Origin: a virus
Length of the DNA: 44,407 nt
IMG/VR virus record: IMGVR_UViG_3300022701_000269
Location: 1 to 44,407 of that record
Direction: 5' to 3' (one strand)
The translations under genes and the position numbers were made by a program. Of the stretch, positions 773-44,407 are shown piece by piece. The notes beneath the pieces are model-generated. The model saw nothing but the letters and a program-made list of their open reading frames with translations. It ran no database searches and had not been told where the DNA came from. How positions within the stretch are numbered: position 1 is the first letter of the stretch; every line of letters starts with the position of its first letter.

Positions 773-789
773 TGTTCAATTTTCGAACA
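773..789. promoter_or_regulatory. Dispersed palindrome copy (TGTTCAATTTTCGAACA)
   Basis: 17-bp TGTTC-N7-GAACA site, 15 bp past the capsid stop and before the next gene on the minus strand. One of 21 copies in the genome. Confidence 0.85.
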
Positions 790-5347: not shown

Positions 5348-5364
5348 TGTTCGAAATTTGAACA
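5348..5364. promoter_or_regulatory. Dispersed palindrome copy (TGTTCGAAATTTGAACA)
   Basis: Sits 4 bp after the stop of the 594-aa gene and 17 bp before the next start on the minus strand. One of 21 copies. Confidence 0.85.
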
Positions 5365-7159: not shown

Positions 7160-7176
7160 TGTTCATTTTTCGAACA
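7160..7176. promoter_or_regulatory. Dispersed palindrome copy (TGTTCATTTTTCGAACA)
   Basis: Lies 7 bp after the stop of the small holin-like gene and before the ATG at 7153. One of 21 copies. Confidence 0.85.
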
Positions 7177-10312: not shown

Positions 10313-10329
10313 TGTTCAATTATTGAACA
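10313..10329. promoter_or_regulatory. Dispersed palindrome copy (TGTTCAATTATTGAACA)
   Basis: Fully symmetric copy overlapping the stop codon of the 63-aa gene and lying before the glycosyltransferase. One of 21 copies. Confidence 0.85.
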
Positions 10330-10527: not shown

Positions 10528-12078
10528 TTAAGTTATACGATATTTTATGGTTGAATCAATTGCACGATAAAGTGTAGTTGAATTAATTATTCTTAATTCG
10601 TATTTAAAATTGTCAGCAGGAGCTGACGTAGTTGTAGTCGTAGTCGTAGTCGTAGTTGTACTCGTAGTTGTCGTTGTCGTGGTTGAAGTGGATGTTGTCG
10701 TCGAAGTAGAAGTAGTTGTACTCGTACTTGTAGTAGTAGTTGTACTTGTTGAGGTTGTAGTAGTAGAGGTCGTGGTTGTTGAAGTAGAAGTTGTAGTAGA
10801 AGTCGTGCTCGTAGTTGACGTTGTAGAAGTAGTCGTTGTAGTAGTTGAGGTAGTTGTAGTAGTAGGCGCTACAGTAGTAGTTGTAGTTGTAGTTGGAGCT
10901 GCTGTTGTTGTAGTTGTAGAAGTTGTAGTCGTAGTAGTAGTTGTAGTAGTACTTGTCGTACTCGTAGTAGTACTGGTTGTCGATGTTGTACTGGTTGTAG
11001 TACTAGTAGTAGTTGTAGAAGTTGTGGTCGAGGTTGTAGTAGTTGTAGAAGTCGTGGAAGTAGATGTAGTAGTGGATGTAGTAGATGTGGAAGTAGTCGA
11101 CGTTGTAGTTGTAGTTGAGGTTGTAGTTGTGGTTGTGGAAGTAGACGTGGTCGTACTCGTTGTAGTTGTACTCGTAGTGCTCGTAGTGCTCGTTGTCGAA
11201 GTAGTGGTCGAAGTAGTCGAGGTAGACGTGGTCGTACTTCCCGCAGCTCCCGACGGAAAACTGTAGATAGTCGGCGCATATGGCTGAAGCATGCCGTAGG
11301 GGTCGTCGTAAAGGAGGGCTACTTGGTCTTCAGTGTATCCTGTGAGCGTTATTAAAAAAGACGATACTGTGCCACCCCACTCATCCTCTGCAAGGATGGT
11401 TTGCTCTGCAAGCCCTAAGTTTGATCCCATGGTATTAGGATTTACAGACCCCGAAAGTGACGTTGTAATGTCAAAAGCATCATCTAAACAAACTGCGAGC
11501 GTAGTACCATCCCATGTTGCACCAAGTTGTCGAACGACACTATCCGGCGTGAGCGTAGAGTTGCTTTCCAAACTCGTATCTAGAAAAGAATCACTGTTAA
11601 CCTCAACTTGAATAGTATTCGGGGAGGTTTTATATTTTAAACCAAACCCGTTGCCGGAACCACCATATTCCGCGATGCCAAGGGGACCACCATCATCAGA
11701 CGTAAACGTTGTTCTCACTAACGATGTAAAGCCTGAAAATGCTGTCGTGTATGGCGAAAAACCGTTTCCGTGTGTTTGTCCCGTAGGTCTTACTAAATAA
11801 CTATCGCCTAAATTTTGGCTGTTATCAAAATATAAACCCAAGCCCTCTGGCATGGTTGCCCAGGAAGGACCTATAGAAGCGTCTATTTCCCACGTATCTG
11901 CTGCCCACCCAAGGTTGTAAAGCGTTAAGCCCGTCCCTTCCCAAAGAGGAAGAAACACCATAGGTGCAATGGCTCCCAAACGCTTCTCAAAATAATCCTG
12001 TACCCCTGCCCGGACAATCTTCACCGGCCCCCATTGACGAGGTTTCTGCTTCCAGCGTCGGCGAAGGAAAATACTCAT
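10528..12078 (-). CDS. LamG-like fibre protein with a ~210-residue Thr/Ser mucin-like tract
   Basis: Residues about 35-270 resemble a concanavalin/LamG-type jelly roll (FLPLWEGTGLTLYN; LLYDDPYGMLQP near the end is frequent in such phage proteins). Residues about 277-485 are nearly pure Thr and Ser, with two short breaks carrying Ala-Pro (AAPTT, VAPTT). A 30-residue C-terminal cap follows (FKYELRI). The tract resembles a mucin stalk and is a dense O-glycosylation target. Codons are built on trinucleotide steps, so length variation by slippage or recombination is likely. The ATG overlaps the previous stop. A head fibre or tail appendage is inferred. Confidence 0.78.
   Translation of the reverse strand: MSIFLRRRWKQKPRQWGPVKIVRAGVQDYFEKRLGAIAPMVFLPLWEGTGLTLYNLGWAADTWEIDASIGPSWATMPEGLGLYFDNSQNLGDSYLVRPTGQTHGNGFSPYTTAFSGFTSLVRTTFTSDDGGPLGIAEYGGSGNGFGLKYKTSPNTIQVEVNSDSFLDTSLESNSTLTPDSVVRQLGATWDGTTLAVCLDDAFDITTSLSGSVNPNTMGSNLGLAEQTILAEDEWGGTVSSFLITLTGYTEDQVALLYDDPYGMLQPYAPTIYSFPSGAAGSTTTSTSTTSTTTSTTSTTSTTSTTTTSTTTSTSTTTTTTSTTTTTSTTSTSTTSTTTSTSTTSTTTTTSTTTSTTTTSTTTSTTSTTSTTTSTTSTTTTTTTTTTSTTTTTAAPTTTTTTTVAPTTTTTSTTTTTTSTTSTTSTTSTTTSTSTTTTSTTTTSTSTTTTTSTSTTTSTSTTTSTSTTTTTTTSTTTTTTTTTTTSAPADNFKYELRIINSTTLYRAIDSTIKYRIT
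10620..11250. repeat. Low-complexity trinucleotide tract coding Thr/Ser
   Basis: About 630 bp read as GTAGTTGTAGTCGTAG-type steps on the plus strand, coding Thr and Ser on the minus strand. All four Thr codons are used, so selection acts on the protein, not on one DNA unit. The assembled length may be wrong, because short reads collapse such tracts. Confidence 0.9.
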
Positions 12079-13435: not shown

Positions 13436-15388
13436 TTATAATCCTTCCTTCCAGTCTTTGTTCAAATTTTGAACATCCGAAGATAAATTATTATCTCTTC
13501 TCATCTGTTGTGCCGTAGCCCAACAACGAGATTGAATATCCTGTGGCTCAGAATCATTACGAAAGTCCTCGATGTGAAAGACATTGTCAGGGAGTCCGTC
13601 AGCACGCCTAATAACCGGAGGTTTATATTCACCTCCAGGCATGATTTCATCCGCAGCAAGAGCCATGCCCCAGGCCATGACCTCATCATCGTGAGCACCG
13701 CCAGCGGCCTCAGGTCGATTGGCCGAAGAGTAAGTAAACGAAGTCATTTCTCCAACGCAACGTGTGTCTACCCAGCCGACGGACTCATTAAGCCAGCGTT
13801 TGACACAACCGACAAGCTTACGACGAGACGATGAAGTCGTGCGCCAACCCTTTTGGTGAAAGATACACTCGCGTGCCGAGTCATACTGAGGCATCATAAA
13901 AAGATTAGTCATGCCCCATTCGACACAAAGATCAAATGTCGAAAGTCCCGGACCAATGGTTTCTATGACCCACCAAGGAGTAGTTTCAGGATTGACTTTA
14001 GTTTCCATAAGCCACTGGTTAATCCACATAATCATCTTGGCAAGAACAACTTCATCTGCACGAGTATAAAGTGTAAAGGAGCAGGATTTAGTTTCCCGAC
14101 AGAGCGCTTTGATTACTGCATAGTCTCCTTCCTCCCGACCTTCGACTACGTCAACACCAATGATTTCTGTTGTTCGCTTAGTCGGAACAGAGTAAACAAT
14201 CAGAAGCGATTCAAGATCCCTTGGCGAATCGGAGAGCTTTTCAAATTTCTCCGACCCAAATTGATATTCCCAAAGCTCCTGGGGCTTTTTCTCGCTGCGC
14301 AGAAGTGTCATCATGCGGCTTGCCGCAGCACCTACAAACACAGGAGAACCTGCTCCAATGTAATCAATGTCAAGTTCCTGAGCAATAGTTTTCGCATCAC
14401 GTCTCTGGCATTCTTTGTCATACCAAGGCGAGCGTAGCCAAGCCTTTTCACCTTTCCAACTGAGCCAATTAGCGGCCTTACCGTCAGTCATATCCGGAGG
14501 TTTCGGCCAAGGACAGTAAAGGCCTTCGCCCTTAAGTGGGTGAAGACTCCAGTGAATCGTAAGTTTCTTCGTCTTTCCGTCGGAGATCGTATTAAAATAC
14601 TGCCCAAATGCACCAAAAGGCGTACTTACTGGCATACGACATGGAGTCGCATCTGCGGTAGCCGTCCAAGCAGCCGTGTCCGTATCTTTCCATTTGGCAA
14701 ACTCATCCATGAAAATTGAACGATAGCGACCACCAGTTGAAAAGTTCGCGTTATTTGACTCCCCGGTTATAGACGAGAATGACTCAGGATTAATCAACTT
14801 CATATAATTATCATGCTTCTTTTTATTAAATCCCTGAGGCAGCAACCAAGGCGGCATTCGATAAAGCAGATAACGAAATTTTTCAAACAGCGTCCGCATG
14901 TCGCCCTTTTTGTCAACATAATCTTGAATACGACTCCCGAGCAAGAAGTCATATCCACCCTCAGGCTTAAGCCAGAACCATGCAAAGACAGCTATGCCTA
15001 TCCAACTTGCTCCCATATCACGAGACTTCTCATCGGCAAGGTCTTCTCCTCGCTCAATATGATCACACTTCGTGAGAATCATAAGATCTTGATAAGGATA
15101 AGTTGTAAAAGGCCTGTGATGTCTGGGTCTGCGACGAACGTCAAGAGTATAAAAGAAAGCATTAAATGCAAAGAGGGGATCTGAGTGAAAAAGCTTTTTG
15201 ACTTTAGCCCGATAGAGACTGTCCGTTTTGCATCTGCGATTAATCTTCAGACGCCATCGTAAGTTTTCTTCATAGTCTTTCGGATAAGGCGAAAGCAGTG
15301 ATTTCCCAGTGGCAAGATAATAACTCATTATCTGGTCAAGATTGTCAACTGTCCACTCGGGAGTGACCCCGGACGAGCCGTTGTTCAT
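13436..15388 (-). CDS. terL: Terminase large subunit (ATPase-nuclease)
   Basis: Packaging motor. The adenosine-binding P-loop variant is KSRDMGAS (residues 121-128), Walker B is IFMDE (225-229), and the RNase H-like nuclease has D413 in GVDVVEG and HDDE near residue 563. The start is uncertain. The ATG at 15388 lies inside a TGTTC palindrome with no close SD. The frame also allows GTG at 15415 (AAGGAG four bases upstream) and TTG at 15436, both overlapping TerS. Its 3' end also carries a palindrome copy (13459-13475). The full length of about 650 aa is on the large side of the family. Confidence 0.93.
   Translation of the reverse strand: MNNGSSGVTPEWTVDNLDQIMSYYLATGKSLLSPYPKDYEENLRWRLKINRRCKTDSLYRAKVKKLFHSDPLFAFNAFFYTLDVRRRPRHHRPFTTYPYQDLMILTKCDHIERGEDLADEKSRDMGASWIGIAVFAWFWLKPEGGYDFLLGSRIQDYVDKKGDMRTLFEKFRYLLYRMPPWLLPQGFNKKKHDNYMKLINPESFSSITGESNNANFSTGGRYRSIFMDEFAKWKDTDTAAWTATADATPCRMPVSTPFGAFGQYFNTISDGKTKKLTIHWSLHPLKGEGLYCPWPKPPDMTDGKAANWLSWKGEKAWLRSPWYDKECQRRDAKTIAQELDIDYIGAGSPVFVGAAASRMMTLLRSEKKPQELWEYQFGSEKFEKLSDSPRDLESLLIVYSVPTKRTTEIIGVDVVEGREEGDYAVIKALCRETKSCSFTLYTRADEVVLAKMIMWINQWLMETKVNPETTPWWVIETIGPGLSTFDLCVEWGMTNLFMMPQYDSARECIFHQKGWRTTSSSRRKLVGCVKRWLNESVGWVDTRCVGEMTSFTYSSANRPEAAGGAHDDEVMAWGMALAADEIMPGGEYKPPVIRRADGLPDNVFHIEDFRNDSEPQDIQSRCWATAQQMRRDNNLSSDVQNLNKDWKEGL
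13459..13475. promoter_or_regulatory. Dispersed palindrome copy (TGTTCAAATTTTGAACA)
   Basis: Fully symmetric copy inside the last codons of TerL (DVQNLN), 22 bp before its stop and just ahead of the next start. It is the only copy wholly inside coding sequence. One of 21 copies. Confidence 0.85.
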
Positions 15389-15398
15389 TTTTTGAACA
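15382..15398. promoter_or_regulatory. Dispersed palindrome copy over the TerL start (TGTTCATTTTTTGAACA)
   Basis: Abuts the TerS stop at 15399 and contains the ATG at 15388. One of 21 copies. Confidence 0.85.
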
Positions 15399-17110: not shown

Positions 17111-17127
17111 TGTTCAATATTTGAACA
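17111..17127. promoter_or_regulatory. Dispersed palindrome copy (TGTTCAATATTTGAACA)
   Basis: Just downstream of the predicted P1 transcript start, where a bound protein would block elongation. One of 21 copies. Confidence 0.85.
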
Positions 17128-17159: not shown

Positions 17160-17176
17160 TGTTCATTTTTCGAACA
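17160..17176. promoter_or_regulatory. Dispersed palindrome copy (TGTTCATTTTTCGAACA)
   Basis: 49 bp after the previous copy, both in the P1 leader. One of 21 copies. Confidence 0.85.
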
Positions 17177-17502: not shown

Positions 17503-17531
17503 TTGTGTTCAAGATATTGAACAATTATAAT
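17503..17531 (+). promoter_or_regulatory. Promoter P2 with a palindrome in the spacer
   Basis: TTGTGT (17503-17508), 17 bp, perfect TATAAT (17526-17531). The TGTTC palindrome at 17506-17523 fills the spacer and overlaps the -35, the classic place for a repressor operator. The first early gene starts 290 bp downstream. Confidence 0.55.
17506..17523. promoter_or_regulatory. Dispersed palindrome, N8 variant (TGTTCAAGATATTGAACA)
   Basis: The only copy with 8 instead of 7 bases between the arms. It lies within the P2 promoter. One of 21 copies. Confidence 0.75.
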
Positions 17532-18411: not shown

Positions 18412-18428
18412 TGTTCAATTTTCGAACA
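18412..18428. promoter_or_regulatory. Dispersed palindrome copy (TGTTCAATTTTCGAACA)
   Basis: 11 bp after the stop of the first early gene. One of 21 copies. Confidence 0.85.
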
Positions 18429-19221: not shown

Positions 19222-19238
19222 TGTTCATATTTCGAACA
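19222..19238. promoter_or_regulatory. Dispersed palindrome copy (TGTTCATATTTCGAACA)
   Basis: Lies 33 bp before the -35 of P3. AACATCACGAG occurs both just before and just after it. One of 21 copies. Confidence 0.85.
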
Positions 19239-19981: not shown

Positions 19982-19998
19982 TGTTCGAAAAATGAACA
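19982..19998. promoter_or_regulatory. Dispersed palindrome copy (TGTTCGAAAAATGAACA)
   Basis: 10 bp after the previous stop. One of 21 copies. Confidence 0.85.
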
Positions 19999-22080: not shown

Positions 22081-22097
22081 TGTTCATTTTTCGAACA
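22081..22097. promoter_or_regulatory. Dispersed palindrome copy (TGTTCATTTTTCGAACA)
   Basis: 4 bp after the previous stop. One of 21 copies. Confidence 0.85.
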
Positions 22098-24989: not shown

Positions 24990-25006
24990 TGTTCGAAAAT
25001 TGAACA
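24990..25006. promoter_or_regulatory. Dispersed palindrome copy (TGTTCGAAAATTGAACA)
   Basis: 9 bp after the hairpin, ahead of the nuclease gene. One of 21 copies. Confidence 0.85.
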
Positions 25007-25983: not shown

Positions 25984-26000
25984 TGTTCATTTTTCGAACA
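25984..26000. promoter_or_regulatory. Dispersed palindrome copy (TGTTCATTTTTCGAACA)
   Basis: 12 bp after the nuclease stop. One of 21 copies. Confidence 0.85.
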
Positions 26001-27586: not shown

Positions 27587-27603
27587 TGTTCGAAATTTGA
27601 ACA
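27587..27603. promoter_or_regulatory. Dispersed palindrome copy (TGTTCGAAATTTGAACA)
   Basis: 11 bp after the SSB-like stop. One of 21 copies. Confidence 0.85.
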
Positions 27604-27669: not shown

Positions 27670-27948
27670 TTGTCATTCCAGAATCTTAGTCTAATCATTG
27701 GTCCAGCGCCGTCGGAACTACCGAATGAGGAGCTTCTTGCTAAACTTGCTGCCGAGCGTGACCGAGTTCGAAGGACATTCGTCTGGTATCGAAATGAAAA
27801 CCAGGTCAAGCAAAAGGCACCGAAGGCCAAGAAAACGTCCGCGCCCTGCCGTGGCAAAGCTCTTCTTGCTAAAGCAAAAGCCCTTGGACTTTCAGTCGAA
27901 GACATTGAAAAAACTATTGCAGTTCTTAAATCTTCGAAAGGAGCCTAA
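27670..27948 (+). CDS. Small basic helical protein (92 aa)
   Basis: A TTG start at 27670 with AAAGGAG upstream. A charged helix (EELLAKLAAERDRVRRTF), a Lys-rich linker and a C-terminal helix (LLAKAKALGLSVEDIEKTIAVL) suggest a small DNA-associated protein. Unknown family. Confidence 0.65.
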   Translation: MSFQNLSLIIGPAPSELPNEELLAKLAAERDRVRRTFVWYRNENQVKQKAPKAKKTSAPCRGKALLAKAKALGLSVEDIEKTIAVLKSSKGA

Positions 27949-27950
27949 CA

Positions 27951-29480
27951 TTGTCAGATTGCAATTTAGTCTCATGCGACACAGTCTATGAGATCGACCC
28001 AAACGAGATTGTTATTCCGCCCAAACGCCAGCGACAAAAAATCGACATTAGCAAAGTCAATGTCCTTGCCACTTCTGTTGAGCAAATCGGCCAGCAACAG
28101 CCGGGCGTATGTCGTCTCGAAGATGACAACGTAGTTCTCATCGTAGGTCACCGGCGCTTGCTTGCCTGTCGCCAACTCAAAATTCCCTATCAATACATTC
28201 TCAAAGAAAATATTTCCGACCCGAGGCTTCTTCATCAAATTGAACTCGAAGAAAACGTCTGCCGTGAAAACCTGACTTTTCTCGAAGAGTCCCAGGCTCG
28301 AGCTGAGCTTCACAAACTTTACGAGCAAACTAAGGGTTCCCAGGTTCGAGGTTCTTCAGACCGCTGGAATATGCGCAAATCCGCTTCCGAAATGCACGTT
28401 GCCCTCGGCACATTAGCAGATGATATTAAAATCACTCAGTGGGCAGAAAAGATCCCTGAGGTTGCCGGTGCCAAAACTCGAAGCGAAGCCAAAAAGATTA
28501 TTAAGCGTCACGAGCAAACTGTTATTCAACATAAGAAACTTGAACAGATTGCACAAAAGCAAAAGTCTGTGGCGCCTGCAGCGCCTGCGGCTACAGCTAC
28601 AGCTACTCCTTCTCTTGCCGAAGCCGCCTCTGCTGCTCTCGACGAATTCAACAAGCATATTCATCAAGTCCCTATGGAAGAATTCCTTGCCGAGCGACAC
28701 GAAATCTATGACATAGTCTTTTTCGACCCTCCTTGGGGAGTCAACTTTAATACTAACTTCCAACTCGACGGATCGAGGAAACCTTATGACGACTCGGCAG
28801 AAAAATTCTTTAGCGATTTGCCAAGATGGCTTGAACTTATCTATCAGTCTATGTCCGCAAACTCTCACCTTTACCTTAAATTTGGCATCATACATTCAGA
28901 CTTTGTCTATTCCTCTCTCACCAGAGCAGGATTCCGCGTTGAGGGAATTCCTATCATCTGGCATAAACGTGGAGCACATCGCACACGACAGCCTCACCTG
29001 TGGCCAGGACGTTCATACGAACCCATAGCTTTCGCTCACAAAGGCTCCAAGGACCTTTCTATCCAAGGCGCACCTAATTTAATTGAAACTCCAGTGCCTT
29101 CTCCTAAGCTCAAATCCATTCATCCCTCGGCTATGCATCCCAAGCTCCCGTTTGAACTTCTCCGTCGTAGTGGCTTCCCTGGCAATCGAGTCCTTGACCC
29201 CATGTGCGGCTCCGGTATGACCGCCGTTGCCTGCGAAGCACATCAAAAAGACTTTGGTTTTTCCTACGACGTCTGTGAAATCGACCCAGACTTTTGTGAC
29301 CTCACTCGTACTAATCTCCTCAAAGGCTACGACAGCATCTGCTCCGAGCCAGTTGAACTCGACGAATCAGCCGATTATCACTCGGTTACTCCCGGTTCGC
29401 CCCAGTGGATGAAAATCTGGACAGCTCATCCTGAACTCCACGATGAGATGATGGCTTACTCGAAAGGGGAAAATCAATAG
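27951..29480 (+). CDS. ParB-HTH domain fused to a DNA methyltransferase (509 aa)
   Basis: Residues about 12-115 are a ParB/Srx-type domain: IVGHRRLLACR (64-74) and ELEENVCRENLTFLEES (98-114). Residues about 138-186 match the ParB helix-turn-helix (RWNMRKSASEMHVALGTLADDIKI, then AKTRSEAKKIIKR). An Ala/Thr/Pro linker (206-222) leads to a methyltransferase: DPPW (259-262) as motif IV and VLDPMCGSGMT (about 413-423) as motif I, so N6-adenine or N4-cytosine. A TTG start with AAAGGAGCC. It may bind specific sites and methylate DNA nearby. Phage ParB-methylase fusions are known; its target is not. Confidence 0.85.
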   Translation: MSDCNLVSCDTVYEIDPNEIVIPPKRQRQKIDISKVNVLATSVEQIGQQQPGVCRLEDDNVVLIVGHRRLLACRQLKIPYQYILKENISDPRLLHQIELEENVCRENLTFLEESQARAELHKLYEQTKGSQVRGSSDRWNMRKSASEMHVALGTLADDIKITQWAEKIPEVAGAKTRSEAKKIIKRHEQTVIQHKKLEQIAQKQKSVAPAAPAATATATPSLAEAASAALDEFNKHIHQVPMEEFLAERHEIYDIVFFDPPWGVNFNTNFQLDGSRKPYDDSAEKFFSDLPRWLELIYQSMSANSHLYLKFGIIHSDFVYSSLTRAGFRVEGIPIIWHKRGAHRTRQPHLWPGRSYEPIAFAHKGSKDLSIQGAPNLIETPVPSPKLKSIHPSAMHPKLPFELLRRSGFPGNRVLDPMCGSGMTAVACEAHQKDFGFSYDVCEIDPDFCDLTRTNLLKGYDSICSEPVELDESADYHSVTPGSPQWMKIWTAHPELHDEMMAYSKGENQ

Positions 29481-29484
29481 CCTT

Positions 29485-29501
29485 TGTTCATTTTTCGAAC
29501 A
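29485..29501. promoter_or_regulatory. Dispersed palindrome copy (TGTTCATTTTTCGAACA)
   Basis: 4 bp after the methyltransferase stop. One of 21 copies. Confidence 0.85.
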
Positions 29502-29513
29502 CACGGAGGAATT

Positions 29514-29720
29514 ATGAAACTTTTCGCTATAGCTTGTGCAAATTTACTCGACAATGAAATAGAAATTTATCTTAAAAGAGACAGTCATTGGCTTCTCGCA
29601 CTTAAACAAACAGGTCTTCTTGATGACTTCGATACGTTTCCAGATCACATTGAGGAGATGAAAAATCATTTCTTGGACTACGATATGCTTCTCGAAATTG
29701 TGGAGGTAACTAATGCCTGA
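29514..29720 (+). CDS. Small acidic protein before the polymerase (68 aa)
   Basis: CGGAGG precedes the ATG at 29514. Helical and acidic (DTFPDHIEEMKNHFLDYDMLLEI). It overlaps the polymerase start by 8 bases. A possible accessory factor; unknown family. Confidence 0.62.
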   Translation: MKLFAIACANLLDNEIEIYLKRDSHWLLALKQTGLLDDFDTFPDHIEEMKNHFLDYDMLLEIVEVTNA

Positions 29721-32289
29721 ACGTCTCACCTCAACCATTGTTCCACCTTGTGGTCCACTCGACGCCAAGCTTTGTTTCATTGGCGAAGCCCCTGGCGAAG
29801 AAGAAGACCTTTCGGGAGAACCTTTTGTTGGCTCCGCCGGACAATTTCTCAATAATGTCTTTCGACAAGTTGGCATAACTCGTTCTCTGGTCCTTCTAAA
29901 TAACGTCTTTAACCAGCGGCCTCCGGCCAATGACATAACTTATTTCTATGAAAATAAGACATTTGGCCCTCGGTCTAAGTTTGTTTACACTTGGGAGGGC
30001 CAGGAACATATCGACAATCTTAAGTGGTGGCTTGACAATCTTAAGCCAAGACCTAATCTTCTTGTTGCCCTTGGCAAGCATGCAATTTATGCCCTTACTG
30101 GCAAGAAGCGCGTTTGGCGCTGGCGCGGAAGCATATTACCTTGCACGCTTAGTCCCAATTATAAAGTTTATTGTTCCCTTCATCCCAGCGCCGTTATGAG
30201 GCTTATTAATGAACCAGAAGAAGAACTCCAAGGACACAAAAAAGATCAAGCTCGAAATGCTCTTCCCCTTTTCATCAATGATCTTGAACGATGTGTTATT
30301 CAATCCGAGTTTCCGGAATTCGAACCTCCTAAGCGTCAATTTGACATTTCTCTTTCGTTTGAGGAGCTATGCAATAAACTTCGATATATCAAAGAAAGCC
30401 GTATTGACTGTGCTATCGACATTGAAACTATTCCATTTGGTCCAGAAGGACCAATTCTCTGGTGCATCGGCTTCGGACTCAAACCAAGTTATGCTTTCAT
30501 AGTTCCATTTATCTACCGCCAGCGTTTCGCATGGACCTTACCACAGGAAGCTTTGCTTCTTAAGCTGATTTCTGAATACTTTCTCTGTCCTGCCAAGAAG
30601 ATATTTCAATACGGTAACTATGATCTAAGTGTCCTTGGCCGTTATTATGGTCTCCGAGTCGCCGATGGCACTTACGAAGACACCATGTGGTGCTTCCATT
30701 CGGCATTTCCTCAGCTCATGAAAGGCCTTCATGTTCTTACTTCGATGTACACCTGGGAGCCTTATTATAAAGATGAGGGCAAGATTAACTACGGCAGACG
30801 AACAGACGACAATGCCGAGTTTATCTACAACGGTAAAGATTGCTGCGTAACTCGTGAATGCTTCCCAGCTTTGGCCAAACAAGCCCGTGAGATGGACACA
30901 TGGTCTGGCTACCGCAGATCAATGTCATATCTCCCCTCGCTTTTTGCTATGATAATCAAAGGAGTCAAATGTGACCTCAGTAAGAAAGAACGCCTTGGAG
31001 AAGACTATGCTCGCCAAGTCGAATTCCACAAAAATCAAATCTCAGAAATCGAAGGAGAACCAATCAACCCTAATTCTCCAAAACAACTTACTCAACTATT
31101 ATACTACAAACATCAGTTCAAAGAACAGCGAAAACGAAATCGTGCTCGCACACTCACAGCTGACAAAAATGCACTTAATAACCTTCGGCGGCTGTATCCA
31201 AATGAACCTGTCATAAATCACATTGTCGAGTTCAAAAAGTTTTCCAAACTTGTTTCTCAATATACTAAGATGAAAGTCGACTGCGATGACCGTATTCACA
31301 CGTCCTATGGCTTCGTCTCTACGTGGAGGCTCAATTCCTCCGAGTCCCCGTTCGGTAGTGGAGGCAACTTACAAAACATTCCAGGTCGAACACCTGAAGG
31401 CCGAGCCATTCGCGAACTCTTTATTACTGATGATATGCCAGCTTATTCAGACTCCGAATGGCCAAAAGTTCTTGATCACGTTACCAAAGTCACAAATGGA
31501 GCTGTTACTCCAGTCAATGGCCGAATGCTTATGGTCGCTCGAGATCTCTCACAAGCTGAAGCTCGATTTGTCGTTTGGGATGCAGAAGATATGCGAACTA
31601 TGGAACTCTTCCTCGACGGAAGTATTGACGTACACTGGGAACGAACCAAAGAAATCTTCGGGATAAATCACTCCTATGATCCACATGAAGAAATCGAAGT
31701 TCCTCTTATCCATGACTTTATCAACATGAAAGACCTTCGGACACTCGGCAAGACAGCCAAGCACGCCGGTAACTATGGCATGGGACCCATGCGCTTTATG
31801 ATGATTCTCAATCTCCAGGGATTTCATCTTCCCTATGCCCAGTGTCGTAAAATTCTAAAAGCCACAGTCGATAACGATCCTTATCTTCAGGCCTGGCATC
31901 AGCGTATTCGTGAGGAAGTCAAAGCCACTCGTTATCTCGTCACTCCTCCACCATTCAGTCGAAAGAGATTTTTCCATGGCAGATTCAACGAAAATCTCTA
32001 TCGTGCAGCCTATGCCTTCAAACCACAGTCGACAGTTGGCGAGCTTATCACCGAAGCAATTCAAAATATCTTTACTCGTTGTGCTCACTATCTCGACATT
32101 CTTCTCAATGTTCACGACGAAGTCATTTATCAAGTCCCTCCGCATCTCCTTGGCCAAAGCCTTGTTGACACTCGCGAAGAACTTGAAATTCCAATCGAAC
32201 TTAACTCCCGTACATTAGTCATTCCAGCTGAAGCCAAAGCCGGACTCAACTGGGGACAACTCGAAGAATTCAAACCGAATCTTTCCTAA
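29713..32289 (+). CDS. DNA polymerase A with N-terminal UDG-like and 3'-5' exonuclease domains
   Basis: An 858-residue replicase. Residues about 17-165 resemble a family-4-type uracil-DNA glycosylase (GEAPGEEEDLSGEPFVGSAG from 24; LHPSAV near 156). A DnaQ-like exonuclease follows: AIDIET near 233, QYGNYDLSVLG near 299, GKDCCVTRE near 374. The polymerase has motif A ARDLSQAEAR near 611, motif B R676-x3-K680-x3-H684-x3-Y688 and motif C VHDE (800-803). UDG-like N-termini are known on SPO1-type phage polymerases. His684 aligns with E. coli Pol I Phe762, an unusual residue there. GGAGG precedes the ATG. Confidence 0.92.
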   Translation: MPERLTSTIVPPCGPLDAKLCFIGEAPGEEEDLSGEPFVGSAGQFLNNVFRQVGITRSLVLLNNVFNQRPPANDITYFYENKTFGPRSKFVYTWEGQEHIDNLKWWLDNLKPRPNLLVALGKHAIYALTGKKRVWRWRGSILPCTLSPNYKVYCSLHPSAVMRLINEPEEELQGHKKDQARNALPLFINDLERCVIQSEFPEFEPPKRQFDISLSFEELCNKLRYIKESRIDCAIDIETIPFGPEGPILWCIGFGLKPSYAFIVPFIYRQRFAWTLPQEALLLKLISEYFLCPAKKIFQYGNYDLSVLGRYYGLRVADGTYEDTMWCFHSAFPQLMKGLHVLTSMYTWEPYYKDEGKINYGRRTDDNAEFIYNGKDCCVTRECFPALAKQAREMDTWSGYRRSMSYLPSLFAMIIKGVKCDLSKKERLGEDYARQVEFHKNQISEIEGEPINPNSPKQLTQLLYYKHQFKEQRKRNRARTLTADKNALNNLRRLYPNEPVINHIVEFKKFSKLVSQYTKMKVDCDDRIHTSYGFVSTWRLNSSESPFGSGGNLQNIPGRTPEGRAIRELFITDDMPAYSDSEWPKVLDHVTKVTNGAVTPVNGRMLMVARDLSQAEARFVVWDAEDMRTMELFLDGSIDVHWERTKEIFGINHSYDPHEEIEVPLIHDFINMKDLRTLGKTAKHAGNYGMGPMRFMMILNLQGFHLPYAQCRKILKATVDNDPYLQAWHQRIREEVKATRYLVTPPPFSRKRFFHGRFNENLYRAAYAFKPQSTVGELITEAIQNIFTRCAHYLDILLNVHDEVIYQVPPHLLGQSLVDTREELEIPIELNSRTLVIPAEAKAGLNWGQLEEFKPNLS

Positions 32290-33522: not shown

Positions 33523-33539
33523 TGTTCGAAATTTGAACA
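33523..33539. promoter_or_regulatory. Dispersed palindrome copy (TGTTCGAAATTTGAACA)
   Basis: 4 bp after the ATPase stop. One of 21 copies. Confidence 0.85.
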
Positions 33540-33796: not shown

Positions 33797-33813
33797 TGTT
33801 CAAATTTCGAACA
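33797..33813. promoter_or_regulatory. Dispersed palindrome copy at the convergent junction (TGTTCAAATTTCGAACA)
   Basis: Begins at the base after the plus-strand stop and ends 7 bp before the minus-strand stop, filling most of the 24 bp between the two arms. One of 21 copies. Confidence 0.88.
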
Positions 33814-38373: not shown

Positions 38374-38390
38374 TGTTCGAAATTTGAACA
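38374..38390. promoter_or_regulatory. Dispersed palindrome copy (TGTTCGAAATTTGAACA)
   Basis: 8 bp after the stop of the 170-aa gene on the minus strand. One of 21 copies. Confidence 0.85.
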
Positions 38391-42694: not shown

Positions 42695-42711
42695 TGTTCA
42701 ATTTTCGAACA
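42695..42711. promoter_or_regulatory. Dispersed palindrome copy (TGTTCAATTTTCGAACA)
   Basis: 4 bp after the stop of the 128-aa gene on the minus strand. One of 21 copies. Confidence 0.85.
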
Positions 42712-43601: not shown

Positions 43602-44361
43602 GATTATCCTTTCTATACATACTTAGCGGAACGACTAAGTCAATGTCACAAAAGTCTTTATAAGTCTGATCTCCATATTTCGCTGCATGTTCGATCCAAC
43701 TTTGAAGTGTGTCAACTATTTGCCAGTTAGGCTTGTCAAAGTTTCTCACGTCGTTGAATACAAAGATTTCCGTCAGTTGCGCTTCTTTTATTTTCATAAC
43801 TTCCGTTATTACTTCTTCCCATTTTTCACTCGGCTTTCCAAAAACATTTCTTGTCCACATTTCCATTTCAGTGCAACCACGTTTTAACTTCAGTTCCTTC
43901 CCGAGAGCATTAGAAAGTAACTCTGTGTTTCGTCTTGCTTCGTTAATGCTACATCCGAGAGGATTATACCAGAATGCAGCATAACCACCGAGATTTCCCG
44001 TAAATACTCTTCGTTCGATTCCACATTTACAGGCAATATCCACAACTCGCTTTGACTCATTCTTTTGAAACTCATAAATTTCATAAAGTTCTCTTAACGT
44101 GTCAACTCGACAAAAAGTTTTCCAGCAGCCAAGACAATTTTCAGGCAAAATATTAAAATGCTTAAATAATACATGAAGCCAAAACAAACAACTTCGATTA
44201 TCCTTTTCCCTGTTACTGTGCAACCAAGGATTTTCTGTGCCTACTACATCTGGAATTTCAACTTTTCCATCTGAATTAACCTGAAACCCAGCCTTTCTCA
44301 AATCAGGACAAATATTTATTGTCGCTAAGTTTCGATACATCATTCTCTTGTCTTTCTCCAT
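43510..44361 (-). CDS. Late protein with Cys clusters (283 aa), unknown
   Basis: The ATG at 44361 follows GGAGGAAAGG. CLGCWKTFC (near residues 81-89) and ACKCG (near 113) suggest a bound metal. The middle (LGGYAAFWYNPLGCSINEARRNTELL) and ITEVMKIKEAQLTEIFVFND are mixed alpha/beta. The last 35 residues, rich in Gln, Gly and Glu, are the part that overlaps the next gene. Its SD is covered by the two-state RNA fold (described at 60-107 and repeated here up to 44407), so translation may be controlled. No family recognised. Confidence 0.72.
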   Translation of the reverse strand: MEKDKRMMYRNLATINICPDLRKAGFQVNSDGKVEIPDVVGTENPWLHSNREKDNRSCLFWLHVLFKHFNILPENCLGCWKTFCRVDTLRELYEIYEFQKNESKRVVDIACKCGIERRVFTGNLGGYAAFWYNPLGCSINEARRNTELLSNALGKELKLKRGCTEMEMWTRNVFGKPSEKWEEVITEVMKIKEAQLTEIFVFNDVRNFDKPNWQIVDTLQSWIEHAAKYGDQTYKDFCDIDLVVPLSMYRKDNHGLDSSANQEGRVGQTGGKEQPLIETLEEN

Positions 44362-44407
44362 TGCCTTTCCTCCGTGTTGAGGAAACTGGGCCACGGAGGA
44401 TAACCCA
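44309..44407. repeat. Right copy of 99-bp terminal overlap
   Basis: Identical to 1-99; one copy should be dropped when the genome is circularised. It contains the start codon and ribosome binding site of the minus-strand gene at 44361 and part of the hairpin described at 60-107. Confidence 0.95.

Follow-up and report, generated by a model that had tools for sequence, protein, structure and literature searches.

The phage protein described here joins a ParB-type fold, a helix-turn-helix (HTH) and an adenine methyltransferase-type domain in a single chain, and we consider it very probable, judging from sequence comparisons across many phages, that it docks, as a dimer and through its ParB-type HTH, on the palindromes dispersed over its own phage's genome. 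The original prediction had linked the fusion to the palindromes by their shared symmetry and presence in one genome. The link is strongly supported by the co-occurrence of fusion and palindrome and by the co-variation of recognition helix and half-site, the half-site being lineage-specific. Our starting point was a window of 44,407 nucleotides (IMG/VR record IMGVR_UViG_3300022701_000269, the whole stretch analysed). It carries an identical direct terminal repeat of 99 bp (1-99 = 44309-44407), and is therefore probably a complete phage genome of about 44.3 kb.

Architecture of the fusion protein

The ParB_N-HTH-adenine methyltransferase fusion gene lies on the plus strand (27951..29480), begins with a TTG start and encodes 509 amino acids. 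Residues 11-130 (27981..28340) are assigned a ParB-CTPase-type fold on the basis of motif conservation, the modelled fold, the PHROG ParB-like family phrog_3264 (residues 12-208, E 1e-14) and the match of a 15-sequence profile of the fusion family to solved Spo0J/Noc/ParB structures (E 1e-21 to 1e-23); the Pfam match is weak (residues 11-95 versus ParB_N, PF02195, E 8e-4, under Pfam's cut-off). A ParB-type HTH follows at residues 136-200 (28356..28550), placed by alignment and with helices at 141-147 and 152-167 in the model. The beta-class N6-adenine-type DNA methyltransferase domain, which adjoins the HTH in the same chain, occupies residues 241-460 (28671..29330) and was assigned by profile (N6_N4_Mtase, PF01555, residues 254-451, E 2e-9) and by fold.

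The ParB motifs comprise Box II GHRR (66-69) and Box III E98..E101-N102..R105, and in the methyltransferase motif IV (DPPW, 259-262) precedes motif I (GSG, 420-422). In the AlphaFold2 model (mean pLDDT 87) the N-terminal half resembles Noc (Foldseek, 7nfu, E 1.2e-7), and the C-terminal half M.MboIIA, M1.HpyAVI, CcrM and M.BceJIV. A peptide search with the window protein as single query gave no match, and relatives were gathered with clade alignments. In 228 distinct relatives the ParB residues G66, R68, R69, E98, E101, N102 and R105 and the methyltransferase motifs are near-invariant, whereas the reader residues of the recognition helix are otherwise highly variable. By motifs and N-terminal fold the window protein is a member of the ParB-CTPase-fold superfamily, for which an NTP-dependent clamp is predicted, and its C-terminal half is by motifs and fold a beta-class N6-adenine DNA methyltransferase with predicted adenine methylation. 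The reading of ParB-type motifs and an HTH followed by an amino-methyltransferase, made in the original prediction, is thereby borne out by phrog_3264, the family profile, PF01555 and the motifs.

Directly upstream of the fusion lies a short ORF (27670-27948) that has no family match and is a possible partner; in two of three annotated fusion relatives a hypothetical gene of similar size is likewise found just upstream. Elsewhere in the window, a DNA polymerase A with a fused N-terminal domain of the uracil-DNA-glycosylase superfamily is encoded at 29713-32289, the two parts being separate ORFs in the relatives G001, G005, G052 and G055. The ORF at 10528-12078 contains, at 10612-11100 and onward, a dense low-complexity repeat of triplet type in which over 40 copies overlap (periods 9-21). 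Two pairs of near-identical short repeats (19250-19276/22618-22644 and 21251-21279/21862-21890) lie near the starts of small genes and are unrelated to the palindrome.

Palindromes of the window genome

A palindrome search found 20 exact TGTTC-N7-GAACA sites in the window, where 0.15 would be expected, and 23 TGTTC...GAACA matches (0.79 expected) if all spacers of 0-14 are allowed. The set is sharply defined, since only one further site appears when a single mismatch is permitted. The most frequent form, TGTTCATTTTTCGAACA, is present at 7160..7176, 17160..17176, 22081..22097, 25984..26000 and, immediately 3' of the fusion gene, at 29485..29501. TGTTCGAAATTTGAACA occurs at 5348..5364, 27587..27603 (5' of the small gene preceding the fusion), 33523..33539 and 38374..38390, and TGTTCAATTTTCGAACA at 773..789, 18412..18428 and 42695..42711. 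The remaining forms are single: TGTTCAATTATTGAACA (10313..10329), TGTTCAAATTTTGAACA (13459..13475), TGTTCATTTTTTGAACA (15382..15398), TGTTCAATATTTGAACA (17111..17127), TGTTCATATTTCGAACA (19222..19238), TGTTCGAAAAATGAACA (19982..19998), TGTTCGAAAATTGAACA (24990..25006) and TGTTCAAATTTCGAACA (33797..33813), the last in a convergent gap, where a promoter is not expected. Nearly all window palindromes fall within short intergenic gaps, and a start codon often follows closely.

The 21 palindromes counted originally correspond to these 20 exact sites, and the number 21 is reached only with a variant that has an N8 spacer. This 18-bp variant, TGTTCAAGATATTGAACA (17506-17523), adjoins two normal sites in an ORF-poor stretch near 17 kb.

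Co-occurrence of fusion and palindrome

IMG/VR was scanned with two forms of the palindrome as query and without use of the protein. The palindrome-richest contigs (10, 9, 9, 9, 7 and 7 copies) all encode the fusion (E 1e-24 to 1e-33). Where several palindromes occur without the fusion, the contig is either a short fragment (G009, G010, G014) or devoid of the replication module (G003). In G003, a contig of 40 kb, there are three perfect copies of TGTTCAAAATTTGAACA (L458 6108 and 17786; L459 8336) and two near copies; neither the fusion nor replication genes were detected in it, which makes it an exception to the co-occurrence.

Phages with the same fusion and no such repeats had been named beforehand as evidence against the link. 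Fusion phages devoid of the TGTTC palindrome do exist, but they often carry a palindrome of their own with the same geometry. TGTTC-N7-GAACA is absent from all three annotated fusion phages; we dropped this as a refutation because one of them, OP947158, has its own palindrome, GTCCCAA-N-TTGGGAC. In roughly half of the genome sets with a fusion no palindrome was detected; many of these sets are only partly sampled, and some are complete (e.g., PP438425). A fusion without a detected palindrome is also encoded by a cultured relative, Microcystis phage Mel-JY34. In the clade with a SAMSVSR or SPMSVSR helix (L261-L276 and related loci) the fusion is intact, and no repeated palindrome was detected. 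As a negative control, fusion-free close relatives were sought through the primase, and no clean ones were found: the fusion was present in 72 of 80 loci of the primase-reached family, and the eight others are taken to be cut contigs.

Geometry and half-sites in related phages

Of 151 fusion loci, 38 proved to hold a repeated palindrome (p<1e-6) in an inverted-repeat scan that was unbiased as to the word, compared with 1 of 151 after shuffling, and the spacer was odd in 33 of the 38. With fuller contigs, 35 fusion genome sets showed an odd-length palindrome with one centre base and a lineage-specific half-site. In a second set, reached via the primase, 20 of 72 fusion loci had an odd palindrome and none an even one only. 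The half-sites seen were TGTTCA, GTCCCA, TGTCCA, TGTGCC, GTAACA, TGTAAA, TGTTTA, CGTCAA, GGTCAA, ATTCAA and GATTCA, and the centre is A/T with all of them. In one clade (G002, G004, G069, G077, OP947158 and others) a conserved CT lengthens the palindrome to positions -11/-10, so that the sites measure about 23 bp.

Phages with different half-sites were also compared at orthologous gene junctions, where their sites coincided much more frequently than by chance. A site was found in both phages at 14 junctions, in one only at 43 and in neither at 409 (odds ratio 12.6, p 1e-8); at one and the same junction, for example, different phages carry TGTAACAATTTGTTACG, TGTCCCAAATTGGGACA and TGTAAAAAATTTTTACA. 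Because sites coincide at junctions in spite of the half-site switch, they are probably functionally equivalent and change in step with the protein. A role as RNA hairpins or terminators was set aside: as RNA the half-sites often fail to pair internally (A/C at -3/+3), and the set has the symmetry of a DNA site.

Co-variation of recognition helix and half-site

In the aligned HTHs the residues that open the recognition helix track the half-site across clades. S-V/I/L-G is found with TTCA, P/A-M with GTAAC or GTAAA and K/R-G/A with GTCAA, and S-K-S occurs with GTCCC in two unrelated clades (OP947158, G052). The corresponding residues of the window protein are A151-L152-G153 (28401..28409, plus strand), and its recognition helix aligns with the GKSRPHIAN helix of Spo0J.

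Across 33 genomes helix and half-site were correlated (Mantel r 0.535; p 5e-4, the lowest value that the test can give), whereas ParB_N, the rest of the HTH and the methyltransferase, as well as DNA polymerase, primase, Sak4 and the PD-(D/E)XK nuclease, did not (r <= 0.12, not significant). The helix columns had been spotted by eye ahead of this test, and as an unbiased check we scanned 390 fusion columns with a correction for distance in the methyltransferase; G153, L152 and A151 took ranks 1-3. When the set was enlarged to 50 genomes the partial r was 0.468 (p 2e-4), with G153 again first and A151 and L152 dropping. Among 23 representatives with less than 45% methyltransferase identity the partial r was 0.61 (p 5e-4), and G153 was first of 386 columns; over all tests the partial Mantel r of helix and half-site lay between 0.45 and 0.61 (p<=5e-4). 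G153 was also first among 2334 columns of eight shared proteins, at a single-column family-wise significance that is marginal (0.631 versus a 95% null of 0.647).

Out-of-sample loci, a few of which come from contigs already used, were then grouped by helix. The TTCA class contained 40 TTCA palindromes (7.7 expected) and about none of the other motifs, the GTCAA class 21 palindromes (0.3 expected) and the GTCC class, with weaker enrichment, 11 (2.2 expected); in the "xM" helix class GTAA palindromes were absent from most loci. Exceptions are G004 and L491, with a PS helix and a TGTTCA site, and L541, with an SVG helix and a TTGTAA site. The helix-to-half-site code appears predictive, if imperfect. 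In ParB and Noc, specificity is set partly by the recognition helix, and four residues, one of them R173, suffice (PMC7383237). The co-variation of residues 151-153 with the half-site suggests that the recognition helix of the fusion likewise sets its predicted site specificity.

Only five families are encoded in essentially all 26 palindrome genomes, namely the fusion, DNA polymerase, DUF3987 primase, Sak4 ATPase and PD-(D/E)XK nuclease, and among these a recognised sequence-reading HTH is present only in the fusion. Of these 26 genomes, 17 also encode a TerS-like protein. A LexA-like or host regulator was rejected as reader of the palindromes, the half-sites varying between phages and tracking a phage protein.

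Placement of the sites

With simple ORF calls taken as genes, 231 of 304 sites lie between genes, where about 51 would be expected. Among gaps of at least 20 bp, a site is present in 30% of those between convergent genes, in 33% of the tandem ones and in 20% of the divergent ones; the sites do not avoid convergent gaps, as a promoter operator set of the KorB or stoperator kind would be expected to. This distribution, in which convergent and tandem gaps are used alike and divergent gaps rank below both, speaks against promoter operators. In 11 genomes, with a mean site spacing of 2-8 kb, the spacing is more even than chance (combined p 7e-8 under a uniform null and 8e-15 under a random-gap null); these two nulls were used in place of a random-intergenic-base null, which is too lenient. 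A ParA of PF13614 gave no match in the window genome or in 22 relatives. Given the even spacing, the equal use of convergent and tandem gaps and the lack of a ParA match, genome-wide loading stations would fit better than promoters or a centromere. A canonical ParABS partition system was rejected on three grounds: no parA partner was found (PF13614, 23 genomes), the C-terminal dimerisation domain is replaced by the methyltransferase domain, and the sites are dispersed evenly over whole genomes instead of being clustered as a centromere.

Discussion

We propose as a whole model, which we regard as somewhat probable, that the fusion loads as a clamp at its own palindromes and methylates neighbouring phage DNA in cis. 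The HTH of a dimeric fusion would dock on the palindromes of its own phage, which would serve as loading stations at even intervals. With CTP or ATP as the gating nucleotide, the ParB fold would close round the DNA at the palindrome, and the closed clamp might slide outwards, bearing the adenine methyltransferase over the adjacent kilobases. Clamp closure, sliding and cis-methylation are modelled on the ParB and KorB families and might equally well hold or fail for the fusion. Only DNA bearing the right sites, and hence only the phage's own genome, would be methylated. Since half-sites and recognition helix would switch jointly between lineages, each system might be private to its phage, and with all sites switching together with the helix, co-infecting relatives and host DNA would be left out. 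Such cis-acting self-marking, in which a nucleotide-gated clamp at private palindromes restricts methylation to the phage's own genome, is an attractive idea that we hold tentatively, at slightly below even expectation.

The fusion might instead be a global transcription regulator with the palindromes as operators, comparable to KorB on RK2 or to phage stoperators, and with methylation as a secondary trait. Such a role would agree with the intergenic excess of the sites, which often lie just 5' of a start codon, with the conservation of some positions at orthologous junctions and with the silencing of promoters at a distance by KorB, itself a ParB-family clamp (PMC11790492). We nevertheless consider it unlikely, as operators would be expected neither to be evenly spaced nor to occupy convergent gaps as freely as the sites do, and as the ParB-HTH part is always joined to a methyltransferase whose catalytic motifs are near-invariant. 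The invariance of these motifs also speaks against the view that the sites organise, segregate or package phage DNA in a nucleoid- or centromere-like manner and that methylation is a side function; a ParB fold with an HTH and evenly spaced genome-wide sites would suit it, but the sites are dispersed, unlike clustered centromere sites, and no ParA was found, and we judge this role improbable.

A little less doubtful than DNA organisation, though still a minor candidate, is the palindrome itself as the methylation target, with the HTH making the methyltransferase highly specific for these sites. An adenine could be within reach in the A/T centre kept with all half-sites, and the HTH stands beside the methyltransferase; yet a 17-bp target with 5-20 sites per genome would protect little DNA, and the beta-class enzymes that the domain resembles recognise their targets by themselves. 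It is very improbable that another protein reads the palindromes and that their tie to the fusion reflects mere shared ancestry. The replication module is indeed common to the palindrome phages, and a correlation with the half-site is seen for one column of the TerS-like protein as well (0.551, 21 genomes). Half-site differences, however, track the recognition helix only, even below 45% methyltransferase identity, and are followed neither by DNA polymerase, primase, Sak4 or the nuclease nor by the rest of the fusion.

Phage fusions of a ParB-CTPase fold with an N6_N4 methyltransferase have been surveyed and are enriched in phages (PMC12704722, PNAS 2025), and the window protein shares their architecture of a PF02195-type domain and PF01555. 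In the accessible part of that survey, diverse NTP binding is reported for ParB-fold fusions, related fusions may bind CTP, ATP, GTP or nothing, and a role for the N6_N4 methyltransferase fusions is only suggested; 17 of 28 ParB-fold proteins assayed bound no nucleotide, which counts against an NTP-gated clamp (PMC12704722). DNA sites or a mechanism are not given for these fusions in that part of the survey, whereas we propose a lineage-specific genome-wide palindrome and specificity residues. A text search of the literature for these palindromes found no paper. The fusion type is already published; its DNA sites, forming with it a protein-site system of the ParB-parS kind, appear to be new as far as the accessible part of the survey goes.

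With ParB-parS and Noc-NBS the window system has in common a ParB fold, an HTH and palindromic sites, and the co-varying residues of the fusion fall at the S-R-P position of Spo0J. Unlike these systems, it has a methyltransferase instead of the C-terminal dimerisation domain, no ParA was found, and its sites are odd-length, evenly spread over the genome and for the most part intergenic. KorB-OB of plasmid RK2 is similar in being a ParB-family CTPase clamp that slides from several dispersed operator palindromes (PMC11790492). KorB, however, is a promoter repressor acting with KorA (PMC11790492), whereas the window system includes a fused methyltransferase and makes free use of convergent gaps. 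The beta-class N6-adenine methyltransferases M.MboIIA, M1.HpyAVI, CcrM and M.BceJIV share fold and motif order with the C-terminal half of the fusion; in contrast to them, the window methyltransferase shares its chain with a ParB-HTH module that has predicted DNA sites of its own.

Previously, judging by the accessible part of the survey, these fusions were an architecture without known DNA sites or function; our analysis now provides proposed cognate sites in dozens of phages, together with candidate specificity residues, a code that relates helix to half-site and an evolutionary indication that sites switch in concert over whole genomes. The fusion and its palindromes suggest a means by which a virus may mark or arrange its own DNA while leaving other DNA alone. 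Should the effect prove to be regulatory, the fusions would still form a large family of ParB-type regulators whose specificity can be read, and one well suited to the study of co-evolution between a protein and its many sites. If the clamp-and-methylate model is true, they would represent a site-directed, spreading and self-only DNA modification, with a logic comparable to epigenetic spreading, and a new way of telling self from non-self during infection.
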